DNA of 32,832 nt. Origin: Smithellaceae bacterium. Lineage in GTDB: Bacteria > Desulfobacterota > Syntrophia > Syntrophales > Smithellaceae. The notes beneath the pieces are model-generated. The model saw nothing but the letters and a program-made list of their open reading frames with translations, was not told where the DNA came from and did not search any database. A program made the translations under genes and the position numbers. Shown here piece after piece: positions 18,712 through 28,696 of this stretch. The stretch is from the NCBI GenBank assembly GCA_030690945.1, contig JAUYFM010000028.1, positions 1 through 32,832 on the forward strand. The letters run 5' to 3'. Position 1 is the stretch's first letter; every line of letters begins with the position of its first letter.

Positions 18712-18909
18712 ATAATCATTCCCTGACAGACAAATTGGCTTTTTTTCGAAATAAAAACTTAACCATTTTACATGGAATTATGTCAAAAATTAGATGGCAT
18801 ATATTCGTATATAATTGTAACTATTCGTTATTGAGGCAGATAAATAGAATATTTGTAATTCGCAGAGGAATGATACTGCTAGGCAATAAACATATTAATG
18901 AACAGAAAT

Positions 18910-18982
18910 GTCATTATTGTATAAAATAGTTATTGACAATTATCGTTTATTTAGTTAGTATTTAGCCGTAACGTCATTATTG
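18910..18982 (+). promoter_or_regulatory. Promoter of the type I restriction operon
   Basis: TTGACA (18933-18938), a 17-base spacer and TAGTAT (18956-18961) form a good sigma-70 promoter about 45 bases before the first gene. A 10-base direct repeat GTCATTATTG stands on either side of it (18910-18919 and 18973-18982), which could be a regulator binding pair. The surrounding 300 bases are very AT-rich. Confidence 0.6.
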
Positions 18983-19004
18983 CATATTATTTAGGCGGTA
19001 GGAA

Positions 19005-19580
19005 GTGAAGGCTTTATTAAAGGACATCGCATCAATTCAAATGGGTTATTCATTCCGTTCGCGTCTTCAAGCCACTACGTTGGGCTCAGTCTCCGTAATA
19101 CAGATGAAAGATCTAACGGATGAGAATATTGTCAATTGCAACAGTTTAACGCTGACTGACATCAGCAAATTCAATGAAAATCATTATGTAAGAAAAGGCG
19201 ATCTAATCTTCCGGTCACGTGGCCTATCTGCAACATCCGCTATAGTTGCAGATGGTCCGGGCATTGCCGTGCTATCCTCGCCGCTTTTCAAAATCAGGTT
19301 GACCCGGCCTGATGTTTTGCCCGAATATCTGAATTGGTTTATCAGTCAGTTGCCCGCGCAGATTTTTCTGGCAAGCCATGCAAAGGGTACAACACAACAG
19401 ATGATAAGCAAGGAAACATTGGAACAGCTTGAAGTTCTTTTACCGCCGCTGGAAAAGCAAAAAAGCATCATTGCTCTGGCTACACTGGCCGATGATGAGC
19501 AACGCATCATGAAACAACTGGCGATAAAACGTAAACAATATATTTCAGCAACCTTAATTCGTGAAGCCAGAGGAGAATAA
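19005..19580 (+). CDS. Half-size type I specificity subunit (single TRD)
   Basis: The 191-residue protein has one target-recognition domain (LKDIASIQMGYSFRSRLQA, then DLIFRSRGLSATSAIV and HAKGTTQQMISKETLEQL) followed by one conserved spacer helix (LPPLEKQKSIIALATLADDE). Ordinary HsdS has two such halves. A single half can work as a dimer, recognising a palindromic bipartite site, or could pair with the full HsdS encoded downstream. The start is a GTG with AGGA very close to it, so translation may be weak. Its stop is four bases before the hsdM ATG, and AGAGGAG inside its end serves hsdM. It is the first gene of the operon. It may also be a remnant of a duplicated hsdS, but the frame is intact. 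Confidence 0.85.
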   Translation: MKALLKDIASIQMGYSFRSRLQATTLGSVSVIQMKDLTDENIVNCNSLTLTDISKFNENHYVRKGDLIFRSRGLSATSAIVADGPGIAVLSSPLFKIRLTRPDVLPEYLNWFISQLPAQIFLASHAKGTTQQMISKETLEQLEVLLPPLEKQKSIIALATLADDEQRIMKQLAIKRKQYISATLIREARGE

Positions 19581-19584
19581 ATAG

Positions 19585-21141
19585 ATGAATGGAAAAATCG
19601 ATCAGAAAGACATCAACAATGCGGCATGGGCGGCCTGCGACACCTTTCGTGGCGTGGTCGATCCCGCGCAATACAAAGATTACATTCTGGTGATGCTGTT
19701 CGTTAAATACATATCAGACACATGGAAAGATCACTATGAGCAATACCGCAAACAGTATGGCGATGACGATGCGCGTATTCGCCGCAAGTTGGAACGCGAG
19801 CGCTTTGTTCTGCCCTATGCAGAATTAAAAGATCATGAAACCGGAAAAGTGACTGACCGGTTCCTTGCCGATTTTTACAACCTGTATGAGCGGCGCGGAG
19901 CCGCAAATATCGGCGAACTGATCAACATCACGTTCGATGCTATTGAAGAAGCCAATAAATCAAAACTTGAAGGCGTTTTCCGCAATATCGATTTCAACAG
20001 CGAAGCAAATCTTGGAAGGACCAAAGACAGAAACCGCCGCCTGAAAAACCTGCTGGAAGATTTCAATAAACCACAACTGGACATGAGCCCTAGCAAGGTT
20101 TCCGAAGATGTTATCGGTAATACCTACATTTATCTGATCGAACGATTTGCCACCGATGCCGGTAAAAAAGCCGGGGAGTTTTACACACCGCATAAAGTAT
20201 CTGAGCTGGTTGCAAAGCTCGCCAGACCCAAATCCGGCAACCGTATTTGCGATCCAGCCTGCGGTTCCGGCGGACTGCTCATCGAGGCAGCACTGGAAGT
20301 CGGTGACAAGAATTTTGCCCTCTTCGGCATGGAATCCAATGGCAGCACTTGGGCGCTTGCCCGGATGAACATGTTTTTGCATGGTGCGGACAGCGCTCGA
20401 ATTGAATGGTGCGATACGCTGGTCAGTCCTGCGCTGGTTGAAAACGACCGCCTGATGAAATTTGATATTGTTGTCGCCAATCCTCCTTTTTCTCTGGACA
20501 AATGGGGCGCGGAAGAAGCCGAAAGCGACCGATTCAATCGCTTCTGGCGTGGTGTTCCGCCCAAGAGCAAAGGCGATTGGGCGTTTATCAGCCACATGGT
20601 GGAAGCCGCGCTGGAGAAAGAAGGGCGCGTGGCCGTTGTGGTTCCGCACGGCGTATTGTTTCGCGGCGCAGCCGAAGGACGGATTCGCGCAAAAATGATT
20701 GAAGAAAATTTGCTGGACGCTGTCGTCGGCCTGCCGGGAAATCTCTTCCCGACTACATCTATTCCCGTTGCCATATTGGTCTTTGACCGCAGTCGCGAAA
20801 AAGGCGGCAAAAACCACAATCGCAAAGACGTCATTTTTATTGATGCCAGCCGCGACTATCTGCCGGGAAAAAATCAAAACGCCCTGTCCGACGAGCATCT
20901 TCAAGAGATTATCGAAACGGTAAAAGAGCGAAAAACCATCGAGAAATATGCGCATGTGGCAGCTCTTGACGAGATCAAAGAAAACGATTTCAACCTCAAT
21001 ATCCCCCGATATGTCGATACCTTTGAGGAAGAAGCGGAAATCGATATTGACGCCGTGCAACTGGAGATCGATCAACTGGAAAAGGAACTTGCAGACGTGC
21101 GGGTAAAGATGGCGCGGATGCTCAAAGAGATTGAACGATAA
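19585..21141 (+). CDS. hsdM: Type I DNA methyltransferase, M subunit
   Basis: HsdM methylates adenine N6 within the site chosen by HsdS and also forms the core of the restriction complex. The 518-residue protein has the HsdM N-terminal helical domain (CDTFRGVVDPAQYKDYILVM), SAM-binding motif I (CDPACGSGGLLIEA) and catalytic motif IV NPPF in VVANPPFSLDKW, plus the preceding GEFYTPHKVSELV. Length and motifs are those of an active enzyme. AGAGGAG lies ahead of the ATG. The C-terminal coiled-coil-like segment (DIDAVQLEIDQLEKELADV) probably contacts HsdS. rhuM follows after 15 bases. Confidence 0.97.
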   Translation: MNGKIDQKDINNAAWAACDTFRGVVDPAQYKDYILVMLFVKYISDTWKDHYEQYRKQYGDDDARIRRKLERERFVLPYAELKDHETGKVTDRFLADFYNLYERRGAANIGELINITFDAIEEANKSKLEGVFRNIDFNSEANLGRTKDRNRRLKNLLEDFNKPQLDMSPSKVSEDVIGNTYIYLIERFATDAGKKAGEFYTPHKVSELVAKLARPKSGNRICDPACGSGGLLIEAALEVGDKNFALFGMESNGSTWALARMNMFLHGADSARIEWCDTLVSPALVENDRLMKFDIVVANPPFSLDKWGAEEAESDRFNRFWRGVPPKSKGDWAFISHMVEAALEKEGRVAVVVPHGVLFRGAAEGRIRAKMIEENLLDAVVGLPGNLFPTTSIPVAILVFDRSREKGGKNHNRKDVIFIDASRDYLPGKNQNALSDEHLQEIIETVKERKTIEKYAHVAALDEIKENDFNLNIPRYVDTFEEEAEIDIDAVQLEIDQLEKELADVRVKMARMLKEIER

Positions 21142-21156
21142 CAACGGAGAATATAA

Positions 21157-22215
21157 ATGACTGATAACCTTCCGGTAAAAAGTGAATTTCTCGTTTATCA
21201 AACCGAAGATGGAAGAATCAAGATTGATGTGCGGCTGGAAGATGAGACCGTCTGGCTTACACAACAGATTATGGCTGATCTCTTCCAGACCACACAGCAG
21301 AATGTCAGTCTCCATATTCGGAACATATACGAAGAAGGCGAATTGAATGAGGATTCAACTCACAAGAAATACTTGTCAGTTCGGCGGGAGGGTAAAAGAT
21401 CGATCAAACGGCAACTCGATTATTACAATCTGGATATGATCATCTCCGTTGGCTACCGGGTGAAAAGCCACGTTGCCACCCGTTTCCGCATCTGGGCTAC
21501 GCAACGGCTCAAGGAGTATATTGTCAAGGGCTTTGTCATGGATGACGAGCGATTGAAAAATCCGCCTGTTGCCGGTTCCGCTATTCCCGATTACTTCGAC
21601 GAAATGCTGGAACGCATCCGCGACATCCGCGCCAGCGAACGACGGATGTATCTGCGCGTAAAAGAAATCTTTGTGATGGCAGGCGATTACGACCCGTCCT
21701 GGTCCGAGACAAATAAGTTTTTCAGCATTATCCAAAACAAACTTCATTTTGCCGCAACCGGTTTGACGGCGGCAGAACTAATTAAAGGCCGCGCCGATCA
21801 CAGCCAACCCAATATGGGACTGACAAGCTGGAAGGCGGGCGAAGTCCGCAAAACGGATGTGACAATCGCCAAGAATTATCTCAAAGAAGAAGAAATCGAT
21901 GGACTGAACCGGATTGTTGTCATGTGGCTGGACTATGCCGAAGATCAGGCCAAACGCCGTAAGCAGGTTTTCATGAAAGACTGGGAACAAAAGCTCGATG
22001 AATTTTTGAAATTCAATGATCGCAAGGTGCTCCCCGATGCCGGAAGTGTCAGCAAGAAGGATGCGGATGGGTTTGCCAAAGATGAATACGACCGCTTTGC
22101 CGAGCGCCGCCGGGACTACAAGGAATCAATTGGAGAAGAGGAATCTATCAAGCAATTGGAAGAAGCTGCAAAGCAATTGGGGCACGGGCGGAAGAAACTG
22201 GAGGATGGGGAATGA
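21157..22215 (+). CDS. rhuM: RhuM family protein
   Basis: This 352-residue protein matches the RhuM (virulence protein) family: an N-terminal winged-helix-like segment (TVWLTQQIMADLFQTTQQNV), the conserved RQLDYYNLDMIISVGYRVKS and FRIWATQRLKEYIVKGFVMD, and a charged C-terminal helical region. The name comes from a Salmonella pathogenicity island gene; its biochemical role is unknown, although many copies lie within type I restriction operons between hsdM and hsdS, exactly as here. It is spaced 15 bases from hsdM with CGGAGA as ribosome-binding site, and its stop overlaps the hsdS start by four bases (ATGA). A fused N-terminal DNA-binding region suggests a regulatory or target-sensing role, which is inference. 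Confidence 0.9.
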   Translation: MTDNLPVKSEFLVYQTEDGRIKIDVRLEDETVWLTQQIMADLFQTTQQNVSLHIRNIYEEGELNEDSTHKKYLSVRREGKRSIKRQLDYYNLDMIISVGYRVKSHVATRFRIWATQRLKEYIVKGFVMDDERLKNPPVAGSAIPDYFDEMLERIRDIRASERRMYLRVKEIFVMAGDYDPSWSETNKFFSIIQNKLHFAATGLTAAELIKGRADHSQPNMGLTSWKAGEVRKTDVTIAKNYLKEEEIDGLNRIVVMWLDYAEDQAKRRKQVFMKDWEQKLDEFLKFNDRKVLPDAGSVSKKDADGFAKDEYDRFAERRRDYKESIGEEESIKQLEEAAKQLGHGRKKLEDGE

Positions 22216-23444
22216 GGAAACACGTCAAATTGGGGGATATTGCCAATATATATTCTGGTGGAACCCCATCGCGCACTAAGCCAAACTTCTGGGGCGGCAA
22301 CATTCCGTGGGTTAAAACGACACAAATTCAGAACTGTGTAATTACCGAGAAGGATGTTGATGAATGGATTACACCTGAGGGCATGAAAAAATCCTCCGCA
22401 AAGATGGTCCCGAGAGGTACGATTCTAATGGCAATGTATGGCCAGGGTAAGACACGTGGACAAGTCGCAGTGCTTGGAATAGATGCAACCATTAACCAAG
22501 CATGTGCTGCGATTATTGTAAAAGATAGTGCTGATAGCAACTATATTTATCAGCAACTTCTTTATCGGTATTCATCAATCCGTAATCTGAGCAACACAGG
22601 TAGTCAGGAAAATCTGAATTCTGCACTGATTAAGTCTATTGCTTTCTCCTTACCTGATTTGATATCGCAAAAAAATATAGCTATTCTGCTTTCTATTTGG
22701 GACCGGGCCATCGACAAGGCTGGACGGCTGATTGCAGTCAAGGAGAAGAAATTTGTATCTCTATCTAACAGATGTCTTTTTGGCGGCAATCCGCTTACCA
22801 TGGATGTTTCAAAGAATACACGATGGTTTTCCGTACCTGCGCACTGGAAAATAGTGCGGATAGGGAGTGTAGCTAAAGAAGTAAAATCAACTAATGGCTC
22901 AGTAAAAAAAATACCAGTTCTTTCCTGCACCAAATACGACGGCTTAGTGGATTCTCTGACATACTTTGACAAACAGATATTCAGTGTGGACAGATCCAAT
23001 TACAAGGTAGTGTCACGCGGCCAGTTTGCCTATGCAACCAATCACATTGAAGAAGGCTCTATCGGTTATCAAGAACTTTATGAAAAAGGGCTGGTAAGCC
23101 CGATGTACACAGTATTTCAAACGGACAACAGCATCGATGACACCTATCTTTATCAGGTTTTGAAAACAAATATTTATTTACATATCTTCCGAGTAAATAC
23201 CAGCTCATCAGTCGACAGAAGGGGCAGCTTGAGATGGAAAGAATTTGCCAAACTTCCTGTTCCTTTGCCGCCAATGAATGAGCAGAAAAAGATATCCACA
23301 TTACTAAAAACTGCACGACAAGAAATCGACTTTCTAAAAAAACAACTGGAAGCCTACCGTCAACAAAAACGCGGTCTCATGCAAAAATTACTAACTGGCC
23401 AATGGCGAGTGAAAATTAAAGAGGAGCATATCGGTAATGGATGA
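22212..23444 (+). CDS. hsdS: Type I specificity subunit, full length
   Basis: The 410-residue HsdS has two target-recognition domains. The first (HVKLGDIANIYSGGTPSRTK to about residue 160) is followed by a helix (SQKNIAILLSIWDRAIDKA). The second starts near WKIVRIGSVAKEVKS and ends with a helix (EQKKISTLLKTARQEIDFL). The C-terminal QKRGLMQKLLTGQWRV is typical of HsdS. It determines the bipartite DNA target of the HsdM and HsdR complex. The second half differs strongly from the first and from the half-size HsdS at 19005, so three different TRDs are encoded in this operon. Its end overlaps the next gene by eight bases, and GAGGAG inside it serves that gene. Confidence 0.95.
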   Translation: MRKHVKLGDIANIYSGGTPSRTKPNFWGGNIPWVKTTQIQNCVITEKDVDEWITPEGMKKSSAKMVPRGTILMAMYGQGKTRGQVAVLGIDATINQACAAIIVKDSADSNYIYQQLLYRYSSIRNLSNTGSQENLNSALIKSIAFSLPDLISQKNIAILLSIWDRAIDKAGRLIAVKEKKFVSLSNRCLFGGNPLTMDVSKNTRWFSVPAHWKIVRIGSVAKEVKSTNGSVKKIPVLSCTKYDGLVDSLTYFDKQIFSVDRSNYKVVSRGQFAYATNHIEEGSIGYQELYEKGLVSPMYTVFQTDNSIDDTYLYQVLKTNIYLHIFRVNTSSSVDRRGSLRWKEFAKLPVPLPPMNEQKKISTLLKTARQEIDFLKKQLEAYRQQKRGLMQKLLTGQWRVKIKEEHIGNG

Positions 23445-24792
23445 TAAAAAACCGTTTTCTCGAGAGACGCTGAATGAAATATTCAAAATATCACCTCATA
23501 AACCAGATCGGGTTATTTCACGCGAATGCGGCTGGCTAGAGTTTAAAGAATCATTTGGTTGGAACAGTCTGCCCAAATATATGAAGACATTTGCTGCATT
23601 CGCGAATGTAAAAGGTGGTTATATTGTTTTTGGAATAGCCAACAGTCCACACATTTTGAAAGGCCTGAAGGGCAATAATCTTTTATCTTTTGAAGAGCTG
23701 CAACCTGAACGATTGTCACAAACGCTTAATGATCATTTTTCGCCTGAAATAGAATGGGATATTCAACAACACGAATTAGATGAAAATATATATGGGATAC
23801 TCTGCATACATGAGTCTAAACATAAGCCGGTAATTTGCTGCCAAGATTCCGGGAAGGATTTGAAAGAAGGGGATATCTATTATCGCTATCGTGGACGTTC
23901 AGAACGGATAAAATATCCAGAACTTCGCAGTATTCTGGAGATCAATCGCAATCATGAACAACAAGTATGGATGCGGCATGTTGCTAATATTGCACGTATC
24001 GGTGTTCGGGATGCCGGTGTTTTTGATCTAAAGACAGGACAAGTTACTGGATCGGGCGGGGCTTTCTTAATAGATGAATCTCTGCTTAGTCAACTATCTT
24101 TTATTAAAGAAGGCGAGTTTACAGAGGTAAAAGGCAAGCCTGCCCTTAAATTGATTGGTAGTCTGAAGTCGGTAGATGGCATTAATTCTAGTGTTATTAA
24201 GAAACAAATTGTAAAAACAAAAGGTATTCGCATAAGCGATATTGTTTTGTGTTTTTTAAACCAAGAAGATGTTTTGGAACCGCAGGAATATATCAAACAG
24301 ATTTGCTTTGAAACAAGCGCGAATCTTCCATTCTATTATTACGTCCACAAGGCCGGCATAAGTCACGATGCGACTGTTGAAATGCTTAATGCCGTTGTGT
24401 CACGTTCAAATGCAAAAACAAAACTTATCAAACGGATAGTTGAACAAACGACACAGCGGTTAAAACCTGCTTCCGATGATAATATTAAAAGTAAAGAAAA
24501 GCTTGAATATGTAAGACAATTAATTGACAATTCAGTCGATCTCTCAATATCAGGCAAAAATCTGGAGTACTGCCTTCAAGCCGTTCGATTACTTTCCGCA
24601 GATGACATTCTAAAACACAGTCCTTACCTTTGTGAATTGTTAAAAACATGCTTTAACAAGCACTATGCATCCGCTAAAGGCCCAGTGGCTGACAATATGC
24701 GCCGTGCAATATGTTGGATTGATGAGGCTCTGTTTAAAGAACCGAAAAAGCCAACGCCCAGTAAACATAAGTTACTAAGGAGACGCGCGTGA
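23437..24792 (+). CDS. AlbA_2/Schlafen-domain protein in the restriction operon
   Basis: The N-terminal ~170 residues form an AlbA_2 (divergent Schlafen AAA_4) domain: CGWLEFKESFGW, then KTFAAFANVKGGYIVFGIAN, and later DIYYRYRGRSERIKYPELR. Domains of this type bind or cut nucleic acid in the Schlafen family, but AlbA_2 function in bacteria is mostly undefined. The remaining ~280 residues carry a segment with a partly repeated hydrophobic and helical pattern and no motif I know. The ATG has GAGGAG ten bases upstream and lies within the 3' end of hsdS; its stop overlaps the hsdR GTG start (GTGA). This strict coupling makes it likely to be produced with the restriction complex. Role is inferred only from position. 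Confidence 0.8.
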   Translation: MDDKKPFSRETLNEIFKISPHKPDRVISRECGWLEFKESFGWNSLPKYMKTFAAFANVKGGYIVFGIANSPHILKGLKGNNLLSFEELQPERLSQTLNDHFSPEIEWDIQQHELDENIYGILCIHESKHKPVICCQDSGKDLKEGDIYYRYRGRSERIKYPELRSILEINRNHEQQVWMRHVANIARIGVRDAGVFDLKTGQVTGSGGAFLIDESLLSQLSFIKEGEFTEVKGKPALKLIGSLKSVDGINSSVIKKQIVKTKGIRISDIVLCFLNQEDVLEPQEYIKQICFETSANLPFYYYVHKAGISHDATVEMLNAVVSRSNAKTKLIKRIVEQTTQRLKPASDDNIKSKEKLEYVRQLIDNSVDLSISGKNLEYCLQAVRLLSADDILKHSPYLCELLKTCFNKHYASAKGPVADNMRRAICWIDEALFKEPKKPTPSKHKLLRRRA

Positions 24793-27700
24793 CCACATTC
24801 CGTTTCAACGAAAAATATTTATCCCAGATTCCCGCCCTGCAGATACTCATCAGTCTAGGCTTTGAATACCTGCCGCCGGAAAAAGCCTTTGCCGAGCGTC
24901 AGGGGAAAACCGGCAATGTGCTGTTGGAAGGGATTCTGCGAAATCAACTCAAACAACTCAACCGCATCAACTACAAAAGCAATGAATATCTATTCAGCGA
25001 GGAAAATATTCAGACGGCCATTCAGACACTAAAGAATATCAAGAATGACGGACCACACAAAACAAATGAGACTGTGTATGATCTGATCACGCTGGGCAAG
25101 TCACTGGAGCAATCCATTGAGGGTGATTCTAAAAGTTTTACACTGAATTATATTGACTGGAAAAACTGGCAGCGCAATGTCTTTCATGTGGCTGCGGAAT
25201 TCAAAGTGGCACGCTCCCGCAGCAATGAAACGGCACGTCCTGACATCGTCTTGTTTGTTAACGGCATACCGCTTGCGGTCATCGAATGCAAGGCGCCGGA
25301 TGTGGAAATCGATCAGGCTGTTTCTCAGTCTATCCGCAACCAGGGCGATGAGTACATTCCACGGCTGTTTTCCTATGTGCAGTTGGTGATGGCTGTCAAT
25401 AAAAACGAGGCGAAGTATGCAACGGCGGGGACGTCGGCTCGGTTCTGGAGTATTTGGAAAGAACTGCGGGATGCGGAAAATGATGTTGCCACCTGCGTTG
25501 AAAATAATCTTACGCCTGTGCAAAAGGATCAACTCTTCCAAGGCGACTTTGCCGTGGCTCGTTCTTTCTTTGATGAACTGGAAAAGGAAGATAAACGTCT
25601 TGTGACCGAGCAGGACAAGGCGCTCTACAGCTTGTGCCGCCCGGAACGGCTGTTGGAGATGGCTTTCAAGTTTACGGTCTTTGACGGCGGTGTCAAGAAG
25701 ATTGCCCACTATCAACAGTATTTTGTTGTGAAATCTACTCTGGAACGTATCAAACAATCGGATGGCGAAGGCAGGCGGCAGGGCGGTATTATCTGGCATA
25801 CGCAAGGGTCGGGCAAGTCTCTGACGATGGTGATGTTGACGCGTAATCTGGCGCTGGACCCGGATGTGCCCAATCCCCGCATTGTACTGGTGACTGATCG
25901 TGACGATCTGGACAAACAACTGGGCAATACCTTTGCCGCCTGCGGGCTTGATCCGAATCGCGCCACGTCAGGGCGTCATCTGCTGGACCTGGTGTCGGAA
26001 CAAAAAGTGGGCATTGTGACCACGCTGATTCATAAGTTTGACAAGGCGTTAAACCAAAAGAAATTTCAGGACGATTCGCGTGATATTTTCATGCTCGTCG
26101 ATGAAAGCCATCGGACAAATTTTGGTTCTTTTTCGGCGCGAATGCGCCAGATGTTTCCCAATGCCTGCTACCTGGGCTTTACCGGCACGCCGCTTCTTAA
26201 AAAAGAAAAGAACAACTTCATTAAATTCGGCGGGCTGATTGAACCACATTATTCCATTCATCAGGCGGTGGAAGACGGGTCGGTTGTGCCTCTGCTCTAT
26301 GAAGGCCGATATGTGGAGATGGAGCAGAACAAAGAGGCCATCGACCGCTGGTTTGATCGTCACACACAGGGACTGACCAAAGAGCAAAAAGCCGATCTGA
26401 AGAGGAAATATGCCCGTGCCGCAATGCTCAATAAAGCCGATCAGGTCATTTACATGCGCGCCTTCGATATCAGCGAACATTACCGCGCTGCCTGGCAGGG
26501 AACCGGTTTCAAGGCGCAGTTGGTCGCGCCCGGCAAGGCCGCCGCACTCGCGTATCAGGAACATCTGACAAACATCGGGTTTGTCAGCTCGGAAGTGGTG
26601 ATTTCCGCGCCGGATACTCGGGAAGGCTACGAAGAGACGGATGAAGAGCCCACGGATGAAGTGGTCAAATTCTGGCAGAAAATGATGAAGCGCTACGGTA
26701 GCGAAGAAGAATACAACAAGCAGATTATCAACCAGTTTAAAAACGGATCAGAGCCGGAAATATTGATTGTCGTGAGCAAGCTCTTGACCGGCTTTGATGC
26801 GCCGCGCAATGTGGCCATCTATCTGTGCAAGGAGATCAAAGAGCATTCGCTGTTGCAGGCTATTGCCCGCGTCAACAGGCGGGAAGAAAATAAAGAGTAT
26901 GGGTATGTAGTTGATTATGTCGGCCTGCTGGGTGAACTGGACAAGGCATTAACAATGTATAGCGCTTTCGAAGGCTTTGATGAGGACGATTTGGCGGGTG
27001 CGCTGACGTCGGTCAATGTCGAAGTTGAAAATTTACCCCAGCGCTATTCCCATCTCTGGGATGTCTTTAAGGAAATAAAGAACAGTGGCGATGAAGAGGC
27101 CTATGAACGATTGCTGGCTGATATTGCTCTACGTGAAGAGTTTTATCAACGACTGATGGAATACAGCAAAACCCTCGGCATTGCGCTCTCCACGGAAGCG
27201 TTCGTCATGAAGATTGATGATGGACGGCTGAAACGCTACAAATCTGATTTGAGGCGCTTCCAGAAACTCAAAGCATCCGTCAAGCTGCGCTACGCGGAAG
27301 CCGTCGACTATCGTGATTACGAACCAAAAATCAAGAAACTGCTGGACACGCATATTCAGGCCAATGAAGTTATCCAATTGAATGAGCCGGTGAATATCTT
27401 TGATGCAAATATGTTCACGATGGTGAAGGAAGAACAGGGCGTTTATGGCAAAACAACGGCGGCCAAAGCGGATACCATTGCTTTCGCCACCAAAAAGGTT
27501 ATTACGGAAAAAATGGCCGAAGACCCGGCTTTCTATGAAAAGTTTTCCAAGTTGATTCAGCAGGCAATAGAGGATTTCCGGGCGAAGCGTCTGTCGGACT
27601 TAGAATACCTCAATAAAGCGATAGAAATTCGTAACAAGGTCACTACCCGGCATCATGACGACATGCCTTCTGTCCTGGAAGGCAAAGAGGACGCAATGGC

Positions 27701-27986
27701 CTATTACGGTGTCATCAAACCGCTCTTTGAGCAGCAGAAAATATCACGAGAGATGTGTGAATCCATTGGTGCGGATACGGCATTGGCTATACAAGATATA
27801 TTGGATCGCCACTGGAAAGTTCAATTCTGGGACGATGATGATACTCAAAATCGCGTTATCGATGACATTGACGATTATCTCATTGATGAAGTCAGAAACA
27901 AAAAACAGATGAACATCAGCTTTGAACAGATTGATGATATTATTGCGCGCGTTATGAAAGTGGCTGAGAGCAGGAGACGTCAATGA
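24789..27986 (+). CDS. hsdR: Type I restriction endonuclease, R subunit
   Basis: HsdR is the translocating motor and nuclease of type I restriction. The 1065-residue protein has the PDDEXK centre (Asp152, then ECK with Glu166 and Lys168), Walker A GSGKS at 340-344, the DESH box at 438-441, GFTGTPLL, and motif VI-region residues in LLTGFDAP and AIARVNR. All catalytic positions are present, so cleavage should be possible. Translation starts with GTG overlapping the stop of the AlbA_2 gene. The C-terminal part (helical, charged) should dock on HsdM. The stop overlaps the start of the YgjP-like gene by four bases. Confidence 0.97.
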   Translation: MTTFRFNEKYLSQIPALQILISLGFEYLPPEKAFAERQGKTGNVLLEGILRNQLKQLNRINYKSNEYLFSEENIQTAIQTLKNIKNDGPHKTNETVYDLITLGKSLEQSIEGDSKSFTLNYIDWKNWQRNVFHVAAEFKVARSRSNETARPDIVLFVNGIPLAVIECKAPDVEIDQAVSQSIRNQGDEYIPRLFSYVQLVMAVNKNEAKYATAGTSARFWSIWKELRDAENDVATCVENNLTPVQKDQLFQGDFAVARSFFDELEKEDKRLVTEQDKALYSLCRPERLLEMAFKFTVFDGGVKKIAHYQQYFVVKSTLERIKQSDGEGRRQGGIIWHTQGSGKSLTMVMLTRNLALDPDVPNPRIVLVTDRDDLDKQLGNTFAACGLDPNRATSGRHLLDLVSEQKVGIVTTLIHKFDKALNQKKFQDDSRDIFMLVDESHRTNFGSFSARMRQMFPNACYLGFTGTPLLKKEKNNFIKFGGLIEPHYSIHQAVEDGSVVPLLYEGRYVEMEQNKEAIDRWFDRHTQGLTKEQKADLKRKYARAAMLNKADQVIYMRAFDISEHYRAAWQGTGFKAQLVAPGKAAALAYQEHLTNIGFVSSEVVISAPDTREGYEETDEEPTDEVVKFWQKMMKRYGSEEEYNKQIINQFKNGSEPEILIVVSKLLTGFDAPRNVAIYLCKEIKEHSLLQAIARVNRREENKEYGYVVDYVGLLGELDKALTMYSAFEGFDEDDLAGALTSVNVEVENLPQRYSHLWDVFKEIKNSGDEEAYERLLADIALREEFYQRLMEYSKTLGIALSTEAFVMKIDDGRLKRYKSDLRRFQKLKASVKLRYAEAVDYRDYEPKIKKLLDTHIQANEVIQLNEPVNIFDANMFTMVKEEQGVYGKTTAAKADTIAFATKKVITEKMAEDPAFYEKFSKLIQQAIEDFRAKRLSDLEYLNKAIEIRNKVTTRHHDDMPSVLEGKEDAMAYYGVIKPLFEQQKISREMCESIGADTALAIQDILDRHWKVQFWDDDDTQNRVIDDIDDYLIDEVRNKKQMNISFEQIDDIIARVMKVAESRRRQ

Positions 27987-28696
27987 GATTGTCCCATGGC
28001 GTCGTCTCCTATGGCAGAGAAAAAATTGAATTCAGTTTCTGTCATGTTGATCGGAAAACACTCGAAATCGCTGTTCATCCTAATCAAACCGTTGTTGTCA
28101 AAGCGCCACTGGGTGTTGAATCGGCTGAAGTGCAAAGACGTGTCGCCAAACGTGCAAGGTGGATCATCAAGCAAAGAAATTATTTCCGACAATTTGAACC
28201 CCGGACGCCAGCCCGCTGCTATGTTGGCGGTGAAACGCATCTTTATCTGGGAAAGCGTTATCGCCTAAAAATCAGCAGCGAGAATCAAGATTCAGTTAAA
28301 TTGTTAAAAGGATATTTTGAAATTCAGGTTAAAGGGCGCGTTACTTCGGACAAGGTCAAATGTTTACTAGATGGATGGTACGCTAAAAAGGCTTCATCAA
28401 AATTCCGAGAGAGTTTAGACTATTGCTGGCCCCGCTTTAAGAAGCTTTCAGTCGTGCAGCCAAGGCTGCAAATCAAACGCTTAAAGAAACGCTGGGGCAG
28501 CTTATCCGGCAGGGGCACACTTACCTTAAACACTGATCTGATCCGTGCATCCAAGGGATGCATTAATTATGTTATTACACATGAGTTGTGTCATCTGCAA
28601 AGTAAAGTTCATGGACCGAAGTTTTATAAAACATTGGAAAGAATAATGCCAGATTGGAAAAAGCGGAAACAAAAATTGGAACTAACCTTGGTTTAG
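27983..28696 (+). CDS. YgjP-like (DUF45) metallopeptidase
   Basis: The 237-residue protein has the zinc metallopeptidase signature HELCH at residues 200-204 with a further His210 in KVHGPKFY, and the DUF45 hallmark KKRWGSLSGRGTLTLNTDLI upstream of it. The N-terminal half (VVVKAPLGVESAEVQRRVAK, then ARWIIKQRNYF) is characteristic of the YgjP family. The substrate is unknown. YgjP-like genes are known neighbours of type I restriction genes, often directly after hsdR; here the ATG overlaps the hsdR stop (ATGA). No terminator is evident after it. A role in processing or removing restriction subunits is a possibility, not shown by the sequence. Confidence 0.9.
   Translation: MRLSHGVVSYGREKIEFSFCHVDRKTLEIAVHPNQTVVVKAPLGVESAEVQRRVAKRARWIIKQRNYFRQFEPRTPARCYVGGETHLYLGKRYRLKISSENQDSVKLLKGYFEIQVKGRVTSDKVKCLLDGWYAKKASSKFRESLDYCWPRFKKLSVVQPRLQIKRLKKRWGSLSGRGTLTLNTDLIRASKGCINYVITHELCHLQSKVHGPKFYKTLERIMPDWKKRKQKLELTLV

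Follow-up and report, generated by a model that had tools for sequence, protein, structure and literature searches.

It is still an open question how Type I R-M systems regulate their expression when they enter a new host. In the literature covered, most of the R-M controls described concern Type II; the Type I examples, from the available parts of two sources, are RptR (PMC12255303) and one C-protein case (PMC12707154). RptR is encoded by the first gene before hsdM and, according to the accessible text of PMC12255303, represses its own promoter via repeated sites; its operon also carries a metallopeptidase gene at the end and cargo between S and R, as does the operon described here. RptR is, in the same text, a 79-aa helical DNA-binding protein with the 6-bp site TAGCTA, whereas the protein encoded first in the present operon, a single-TRD HsdS paralogue (half-S), has 191 aa and a TRD, and its candidate site is a different palindrome of 21 bp. 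RptR is a precedent for a regulator in the slot of the half-S. The C protein, whose reported place in Mycoplasma gallisepticum is ahead of a Type I hsd operon, is listed with others in a 2025 review (PMC12707154), the available part of which names no HsdS-based regulator. As far as that part goes, C proteins are encoded in the R-M locus and act at their own promoter, as is proposed below for the half-S; they are helix-turn-helix (HTH) proteins, whereas the half-S is predicted to have the HsdS/TRD fold.

Chains with one TRD and one helix, two copies of which read an interrupted palindrome, are represented in the accessible descriptions by EcoR124I HsdS(delta50), the EcoDXXI truncations and NgoAV. 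The EcoR124I half-S homodimer reads GAA N7 TTC with methylated adenines 7 nt apart, the same spacing as in most of the operators reported here, and the methylated bases of Type I systems generally lie 6–9 bp apart (PMC3874165, available part). Homodimeric truncated HsdS proteins serve as a genome-wide specificity; here, a full HsdS is present as well and the candidate target of the half-S lies in a promoter. The Type 1 1/2 methyltransferases (M.AhdI, M.PshAI and M.BsaBI) resemble the half-S in having a natural, separate single-TRD S, with M.AhdI composed of two M and two S, but unlike the half-S they are part of Type II systems. No statement that these enzymes target their own promoter was found in the literature covered, and no description of self-regulation by a half-S was found in the part of the open full-text literature that was accessible.

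The window (the whole stretch of 32,832 nucleotides analysed here) carries on its forward strand an operon in the order half-S, hsdM, RhuM, full hsdS, AlbA_2, hsdR and YgjP-like metallopeptidase. The half-S gene (19005–19580, GTG start) ends 4 bp ahead of the start of hsdM (19585–21141), whose 518-aa product is the N6-adenine methyltransferase subunit (PF02384, E 3.2e-100; PF12161 HsdM_N; TIGR00497 above cut-off). A RhuM-family gene (21157–22215, PF13310) occupies the slot between M and S, and is followed by a full-length hsdS (22212–23444, 410 aa) with two Methylase_S stretches in Pfam. A gene with a Schlafen AlbA_2 domain (23437–24792, PF04326) lies between S and R, then come hsdR (24789–27986, 1065 aa; HSDR_N, SWI2_SNF2 and T1R_D3; TIGR00348) and, at the end of the operon, a gene for a YgjP/SprT-like metallopeptidase (27983–28696, PF01863). 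In relatives, a SprT-family gene follows as well. The whole genome (3.15 Mb) contains nine Methylase_S matches.

The M-S and S-R junctions are cargo slots, both in the window (21157–22215 and 23437–24792) and in relatives (L039–L044, L167 and L170). In the relatives that were opened, the M-S slot holds other genes or is empty, and the cargo of the two slots comprises RhuM, a PDDEXK nuclease, Shedu, DUF3800, Fic, TIGR04141, YecA, a cold-shock domain and AlbA_2.

The half-S protein gave a single Pfam match, to Methylase_S (PF01420, residues 5–157, E 4.8e-11, 43.6 bits against a cut-off of 22), and at E values up to 0.001 Pfam detected no other domain and no HTH. The AlphaFold2 model, built from a 70-sequence alignment (pLDDT 95.2, pTM 0.87), shows a globular domain (residues 1–148) followed by one helix of 40 residues (149–188); a single-sequence model (pLDDT 36) was discarded. 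By the alignment-based model, the half-S differs from a classical Type I HsdS in having one TRD and one helix per chain instead of two of each, the arrangement of the single-TRD S of Type 1 1/2 enzymes and of homodimeric half-S proteins. The S subunits 7vru_C, 1yf2_A, 3okg and 5ybb were among its best structural matches. Among the best full-length matches was also Esub1 (PDB 8vsq and 8vsr), like the half-S a stand-alone single-TRD S-like protein, the structure of which was solved with the protein Prx; no paper naming Esub1 was found in the open full-text literature. The matches to Esub1 and HsdS chains had VIA Z scores of 18.9–19.5, with 17–18% identity and an rmsd of 4.3–5.0. The GTG is the earliest start codon downstream of the in-frame stop, and is immediately adjoined by a Shine-Dalgarno-like AGGAA.

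An HsdM-anchored scan confirmed at least 546 relatives, and among the best 80 of the 546, with 72–96% identity, an upstream half-S was present in 78; the record titles span many phyla, but many of the records are metagenome bins, so that single taxon titles may be wrong. The two exceptions were L080, which had none, and L082, with merely 53 bp of upstream sequence. In the 78 loci (L074, L100 and L113 of which are partial reads), the half-S lay within 40 bp of hsdM or overlapped it in 52, at 41–530 bp in 17 and farther away in nine. The protein is clearly conserved over the entire chain, with a length from the profile-inferred start of 189–208 aa (median 191, n = 75). A half-S relative turned up in 54 records of a plasmid search, and in 45 of these the match spanned at least 80% of the protein; 18 regions were opened, and the half-S was directly before hsdM in all 17 that were annotated, the other one being unannotated. 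Among 274 gammaproteobacterial genomes searched later, 14 (the search-centre genome counted) contained a short half-S scoring 80 bits or more, as did 12 of 297 genomes of the same phylum as the window (its own genome counted), and HsdM was downstream in 24 of the 27 short half-S loci thus obtained, one of which (L174) is from the genome of L061. These results show that the half-S is a core part of a conserved Type I R-M operon subtype, and no add-on.

The preliminary description of this DNA had read the gene as one TRD plus one spacer helix, preceded by a close Shine-Dalgarno sequence and a GTG start, and had assigned two TRDs to the downstream HsdS; the Pfam matches, the model and the AGGAA directly abutting the GTG agree with all of this. 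It had also regarded the half-S as an extra subunit in an unusual place before hsdM. Measured against textbook Type I loci the place is indeed unusual, but it is the standard one in this HsdM clade, and with 78 of the best 80 relatives carrying the gene the word extra does not apply.

Small genes were frequent between half-S and hsdM in the 16 gap loci inspected, and examples are L093, L104, L084, L095, L061, L063, L065, L098, L105, L116, L118 and L122. One form encodes a short protein with DSHGxDPxxIxG close to the end, and the other a protein of about 100 aa which we take to be GIY-YIG-like. It was also found that E. coli EC26 (L173, 1804–2376) has a very divergent half-S ahead of another hsdM, and half-S proteins may thus exist outside the HsdM clade studied.

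The intergenic region before the half-S contains two copies of a palindrome, approximately TGCAGWAAYGNCRTTWCTGCA, one on either side of a sigma-70-like promoter. The promoter, TTGACA-17-TAGTAT (18933–18961, plus strand), matches 10 of 12 positions, with a start site inferred near 18968; the scan of the region gave four such sites, against 2.6 on average in shuffles. The first candidate operator, O1 (AACAGAAATGTCATTATTGTA, 18901–18921), has its dyad at 18911, with A at -4 (18907) and T at +4 (18915). O2 (AGCCGTAACGTCATTATTGCA, 18964–18984) has its dyad at 18974, over the inferred start, with A at -4 (18970) and T at +4 (18978). Both were detected by the EM motif and PWM, both are imperfect palindromes, and relative to the inferred start their centres lie near -57 and +6. 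In relatives, O1 is found at -46 to -65 and the position of O2 is more variable.

The motif was recovered by unconstrained EM on the plus strand of the 200 bp before the half-S in 79 loci, which gave TGCAGNAACGNCATTACTGCA with 19.6 bits and a self-reverse-complement r of 0.92. Fits to 12 shuffled sets and to two control regions (of 68 and 71 loci) were all low in information, with likelihoods of 270–714 compared with 987. L010 and L012, which share their contigs with L046 and L045, and any region shorter than 60 bases were left out of the motif runs. A run on both strands placed at least two sites above 7 bits in 57 of the 79 regions, one in 12 and none in 10, these counts being in-sample. When the motif was derived from one half-S clade and applied to the others, at least one site was found in 20/20, 9/12 and 32/33 regions, and at least two in 15/20, 8/12 and 19/33, compared with 0/768, 0/474 and 0/1244 control windows; the threshold was the 99th percentile of the controls, and L054, L055, L057, L077, four Fibrobacter loci and all plasmid loci were left out of this cross-validation. 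Two sites were present in 53 of 62 loci with this palindrome (type A), and TTGAC stood between them in 47 of the 53, the -35 box having been sought solely between the two sites. Methods without a motif model gave less: counting of perfect palindromes produced a weak signal (best word AACG N1 CGTT in 11 of 87 loci, shuffle maximum 9), indicating that a degenerate motif model is needed. A general palindrome score of at least 13 was reached in 30 of 101 loci (10.2 expected from shuffles) and a paired-palindrome score above the 95% shuffle level in 19 of 101, both modest but significant excesses.

From these data, and with a probability of roughly two in three, we propose that the half-S is a dedicated half-HsdS which binds its own promoter as a homodimer, probably together with HsdM and perhaps also methylating it, and so autoregulates the operon. 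The properties computed in support of this reading are the conservation of the gene, where it lies, the fold predicted for its product, and palindromes that come in pairs and track the half-S. Two half-S chains would pair via their single helix and present identical TRDs in inverted orientation, so that the dimer would read an interrupted palindrome. With O1 just upstream of the -35 box and O2 over the start site, occupancy of the two sites would control transcription of the whole operon. Repression via O2 is the most likely outcome, and O1 near -57 might provide cooperativity, or activation at low dose in the manner of C proteins. In such a loop the half-S would be translated first, beside HsdM, and the dimer on O1 and O2 would hold the operon down; on entry to a new cell the operators would be free, and half-S and HsdM would be made until the promoter is shut. 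A fuller version, in which an M2(half-S)2 complex is a TRD-fold regulator that both binds and methylates the two palindromes, and the operon in this way senses its own supply of HsdM, is offered tentatively and stays on the doubtful side of even.

The geometry of the palindromes bears on the part of HsdM. Of 113 type A sites, 99% have A at -4 and 100% have T at +4, and when sites were picked without columns -4, -3, +3 and +4 the same bases were still found in 60 of 62 and 61 of 62, respectively. Other palindromes occur at other loci, namely type B (CTGTA..TACAG), type C (GCATCA N7 TGATGC) and type D (TAGTAT N5 ATACTA), and these types and that of L214 also have an A-N-T arrangement, with 7–8 bp between the two bases. 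The spacer of type B is N7, except for N8 in L039, L040 and L159, and L183 has N6, with one of its two sites breaking the A-N-T rule. Thus all readable palindromes, one site excepted, have an A-N6-8-T core, with 7 bp between the candidate adenines as the rule. The A-N7-T of the putative operators falls within the 6–9 bp adenine spacing of Type I and half-S homodimer targets. No difference in half-S helix length was seen between operators with N7 and N8 spacers in the alphaproteobacterial group.

It might be argued that HsdM is not involved, and that a half-S homodimer alone binds the operators as a pure transcription factor. The C-terminal motif LL[TSA]G, noticed in the full S proteins of these operons and without a published definition, occurs in 50 of 64 full S but in 2 of 102 half-S proteins, and the half-S of the window ends in KRKQYISATLIREARGE and lacks it. 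This may weaken the binding of HsdM by the half-S, or mean that it has been lost, and the conserved operator is also longer than a usual Type I half-site. Against this, the A-N7-T present in most palindrome types is a requirement of a methyltransferase and would be needless for a pure factor, and the half-S accompanies this particular HsdM clade. In addition, neither S nor M of EcoKI binds DNA alone, according to the available part of PMC3874165. We therefore consider a half-S acting on its own unlikely; the Type I adenine geometry, together with the behaviour of EcoKI S and M, points to M2(half-S)2 as the most likely binder, and the operator adenines may also be methylated by it.

The preliminary description had suggested that a half-S homodimer, next to the complex with the full HsdS, would give the cell a second methylation specificity with a palindromic bipartite motif. 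In favour of a working second specificity in defence, in the accessible text of PMC3874165 Type IC half-S homodimers are active methyltransferases and NgoAV is a natural palindromic case, and half-S constructs are active with HsdR too (PMC6158711, available part). The distribution of sequence variation points the other way. In the 63 loci that have both proteins, the half-S TRDs share a mean pairwise identity of 0.466, whereas the first and second TRDs of the full S reach 0.193 and 0.228; the full S set (64 loci) was found with the half-S profile, which favours half-S-like S proteins. The target reader has thus been retained in the half-S and has diversified in the full S.

The target also appears concentrated in the promoter. 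O2 is the only exact match in the 3.15-Mb genome to the 17-base pattern GWAAYGNCRTTWYTGCA, and part of O1 (18905–18921) is one of two matches with one mismatch, although GWAAYGNCRTTWYTGCA was composed with the motif already in view and the window was among the 79 motif inputs. At three mismatches, GWAAYGNCRTTWYTGCA showed no excess over the reversed control in the same genome (273 and 310 compared with 307 and 300). In ten other genomes, the 21-mer at up to three mismatches was found at 0–8 places, including promoter sites falling within that limit, compared with 0–2 for the reversed control. A second specificity would leave the position and pairing of the sites around the promoter unexplained, and is improbable: the homodimer with a palindromic bipartite target fits the promoter palindromes, the Type I geometry and the change of the palindrome with the TRD, but a genome-wide role is not supported by a conserved TRD and a target that is rare elsewhere.

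A shortened target, CAGWA N7 TWCTG, was tried and rejected. It had 11 exact places in the genome, none of them the promoter in the window, and at one mismatch it had fewer matches than the reversed control (331 compared with 511), which indicates that the centre of the palindrome also matters. An interspersed repeat with GAAATGACATTTC and TCGAAATGACATTTCTTGA is present in at least 27 copies on many contigs of this genome (L128, L133, L135 and others), and the core of its TCGAAATGACATTTCTTGA corresponds to the central 13 bp of the operator palindrome. The match is probably coincidental; the repeat could titrate the half-S, but after checking it was not counted as evidence.

The palindromes might instead be the operator of a host-encoded regulator or of another protein of the operon, with the half-S merely adjacent, and co-inheritance in one operon would then also yield some tracking of the half-S. 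The operator labels in 102 loci were 61 type A, eight B, four C, four D, one A and B, and 24 none, with L057 (8 bases upstream) counted as none; types B–D were set after viewing the loci, as was the half-S identity cut of 0.38 used below. On the half-S tree (100 rows, without the contig-end fragments L074 and L113, 2 of the 102) the labels required 13 changes, compared with a mean of 36.1 in shuffles, none of 200 of which was as low. Types B and D each formed one clade, and the clustering of type C on this tree was not clear (3 changes; 29 of 500 shuffles as low). Two loci from the later genome searches with a half-S below 180 bits, L180 and L214, have palindrome pairs of their own, GCATCA N7 TGATGC with GCATCA N7 TGACGC and ATCAGTA N7 TACTGAT with ATCAGTA N7 TACTGAC, respectively.

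In pooled bins, type A was found in 59 of 64 loci whose half-S identity to the window reached 0.38 or more, compared with 1 of 12 loci below this cut. The same held inside narrow bins of HsdM identity to the window, with type A in 32/36 loci above and 1/6 below the cut at HsdM identities of 0.76–0.82, and in 18/19 and 0/5 at 0.70–0.76. In held-out loci, type A sites scoring 14 bits or more were present in 7 of 8 with a half-S of at least 230 bits and in 0 of 18 with one below 180 bits, or 1 of 18 at a 13-bit cut-off (L181, 13.6); the Fisher table on the latter group was made without L185, L188 and L202 (0/15; with them 0/18). The AUC for sharing type A was 0.917 from half-S identity and 0.799 from HsdM, but nearest-neighbour prediction of type A was no better from the half-S than from HsdM (85/94 each), as a regulator other than the half-S would allow. 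Taken together, these comparisons suggest that the palindrome follows the half-S more closely than HsdM, and that where the half-S has diverged the palindrome is often a different one. Joint inheritance of promoter and half-S might still account for the tracking.

Other features of the operon can be set against such a regulator: the gene content between half-S and M, like that between M and S, is variable, and loci with titles from many phyla share the same site, which speaks against a host factor. One such locus, titled Methanolobus sp. MAG (L072), has a half-S/HsdM pair and a type A operator in an archaeal-binned contig, reflecting either lateral transfer or a binning error. A half-S clade of six (L014, L066, L071, L076, L090 and L092), which is among the 24 loci labelled none, had no recognisable operator pair. 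In L014, L066 and L076 a hairpin just before the half-S was seen by eye, followed by a T-run in L066 and L076, and attenuation might take the place of operator control there.

Operons without a half-S were also opened. In four operons of related HsdM (one Klebsiella, three E. coli) there was no half-S, showing that such an HsdM can do without it; the Klebsiella HsdM is 54% identical to that of the window, and the E. coli HsdM DNA is 91–97% identical to that of Klebsiella. No type A–D sites and no paired palindromes were found in the four (pair scores of 8–9, equal to the shuffle mean). They could not be taken as palindrome-free, since their single-palindrome scores (12–13) equalled those of many half-S loci, and three of the four keep a single palindrome near the hsdM start, GATGCA N6 TGCATC, of the A-N6-T form (L170 and L172 match exactly, L167 with one mismatch). 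The presence of a palindrome in a promoter is thus in itself no proof of a half-S, which is a point in favour of another regulator and slightly lowers confidence in the preferred reading, but given the behaviour of the operator inside the narrow HsdM bins we consider an operator foreign to the half-S very improbable. Short fragments of S are frequently seen in Type I loci, but decay of a second hsdS is contradicted by the presence of the half-S in nearly all of the best relatives, its uniform length and the conservation of the whole chain, and can be dismissed.

On the preferred reading, a half-S that probably with HsdM controls its own promoter, a copy of the targeting subunit appears to have been put to use for control in a widespread Type I subtype. 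If this is true, half-S genes annotated as 'restriction endonuclease subunit S' have been misread as extra specificity genes. The DNA target of a half-S would be predictable from the promoter sequence, which would offer a cheap route to TRD specificities, and methylation, HsdM supply and transcription would be joined in one loop. On the fuller version with methylation, the operon would have a self-methylating, self-limiting R-M promoter, and the half-S proteins would constitute a new class of transcription factor across many bacterial phyla, built on the TRD fold and not on a helix-turn-helix.
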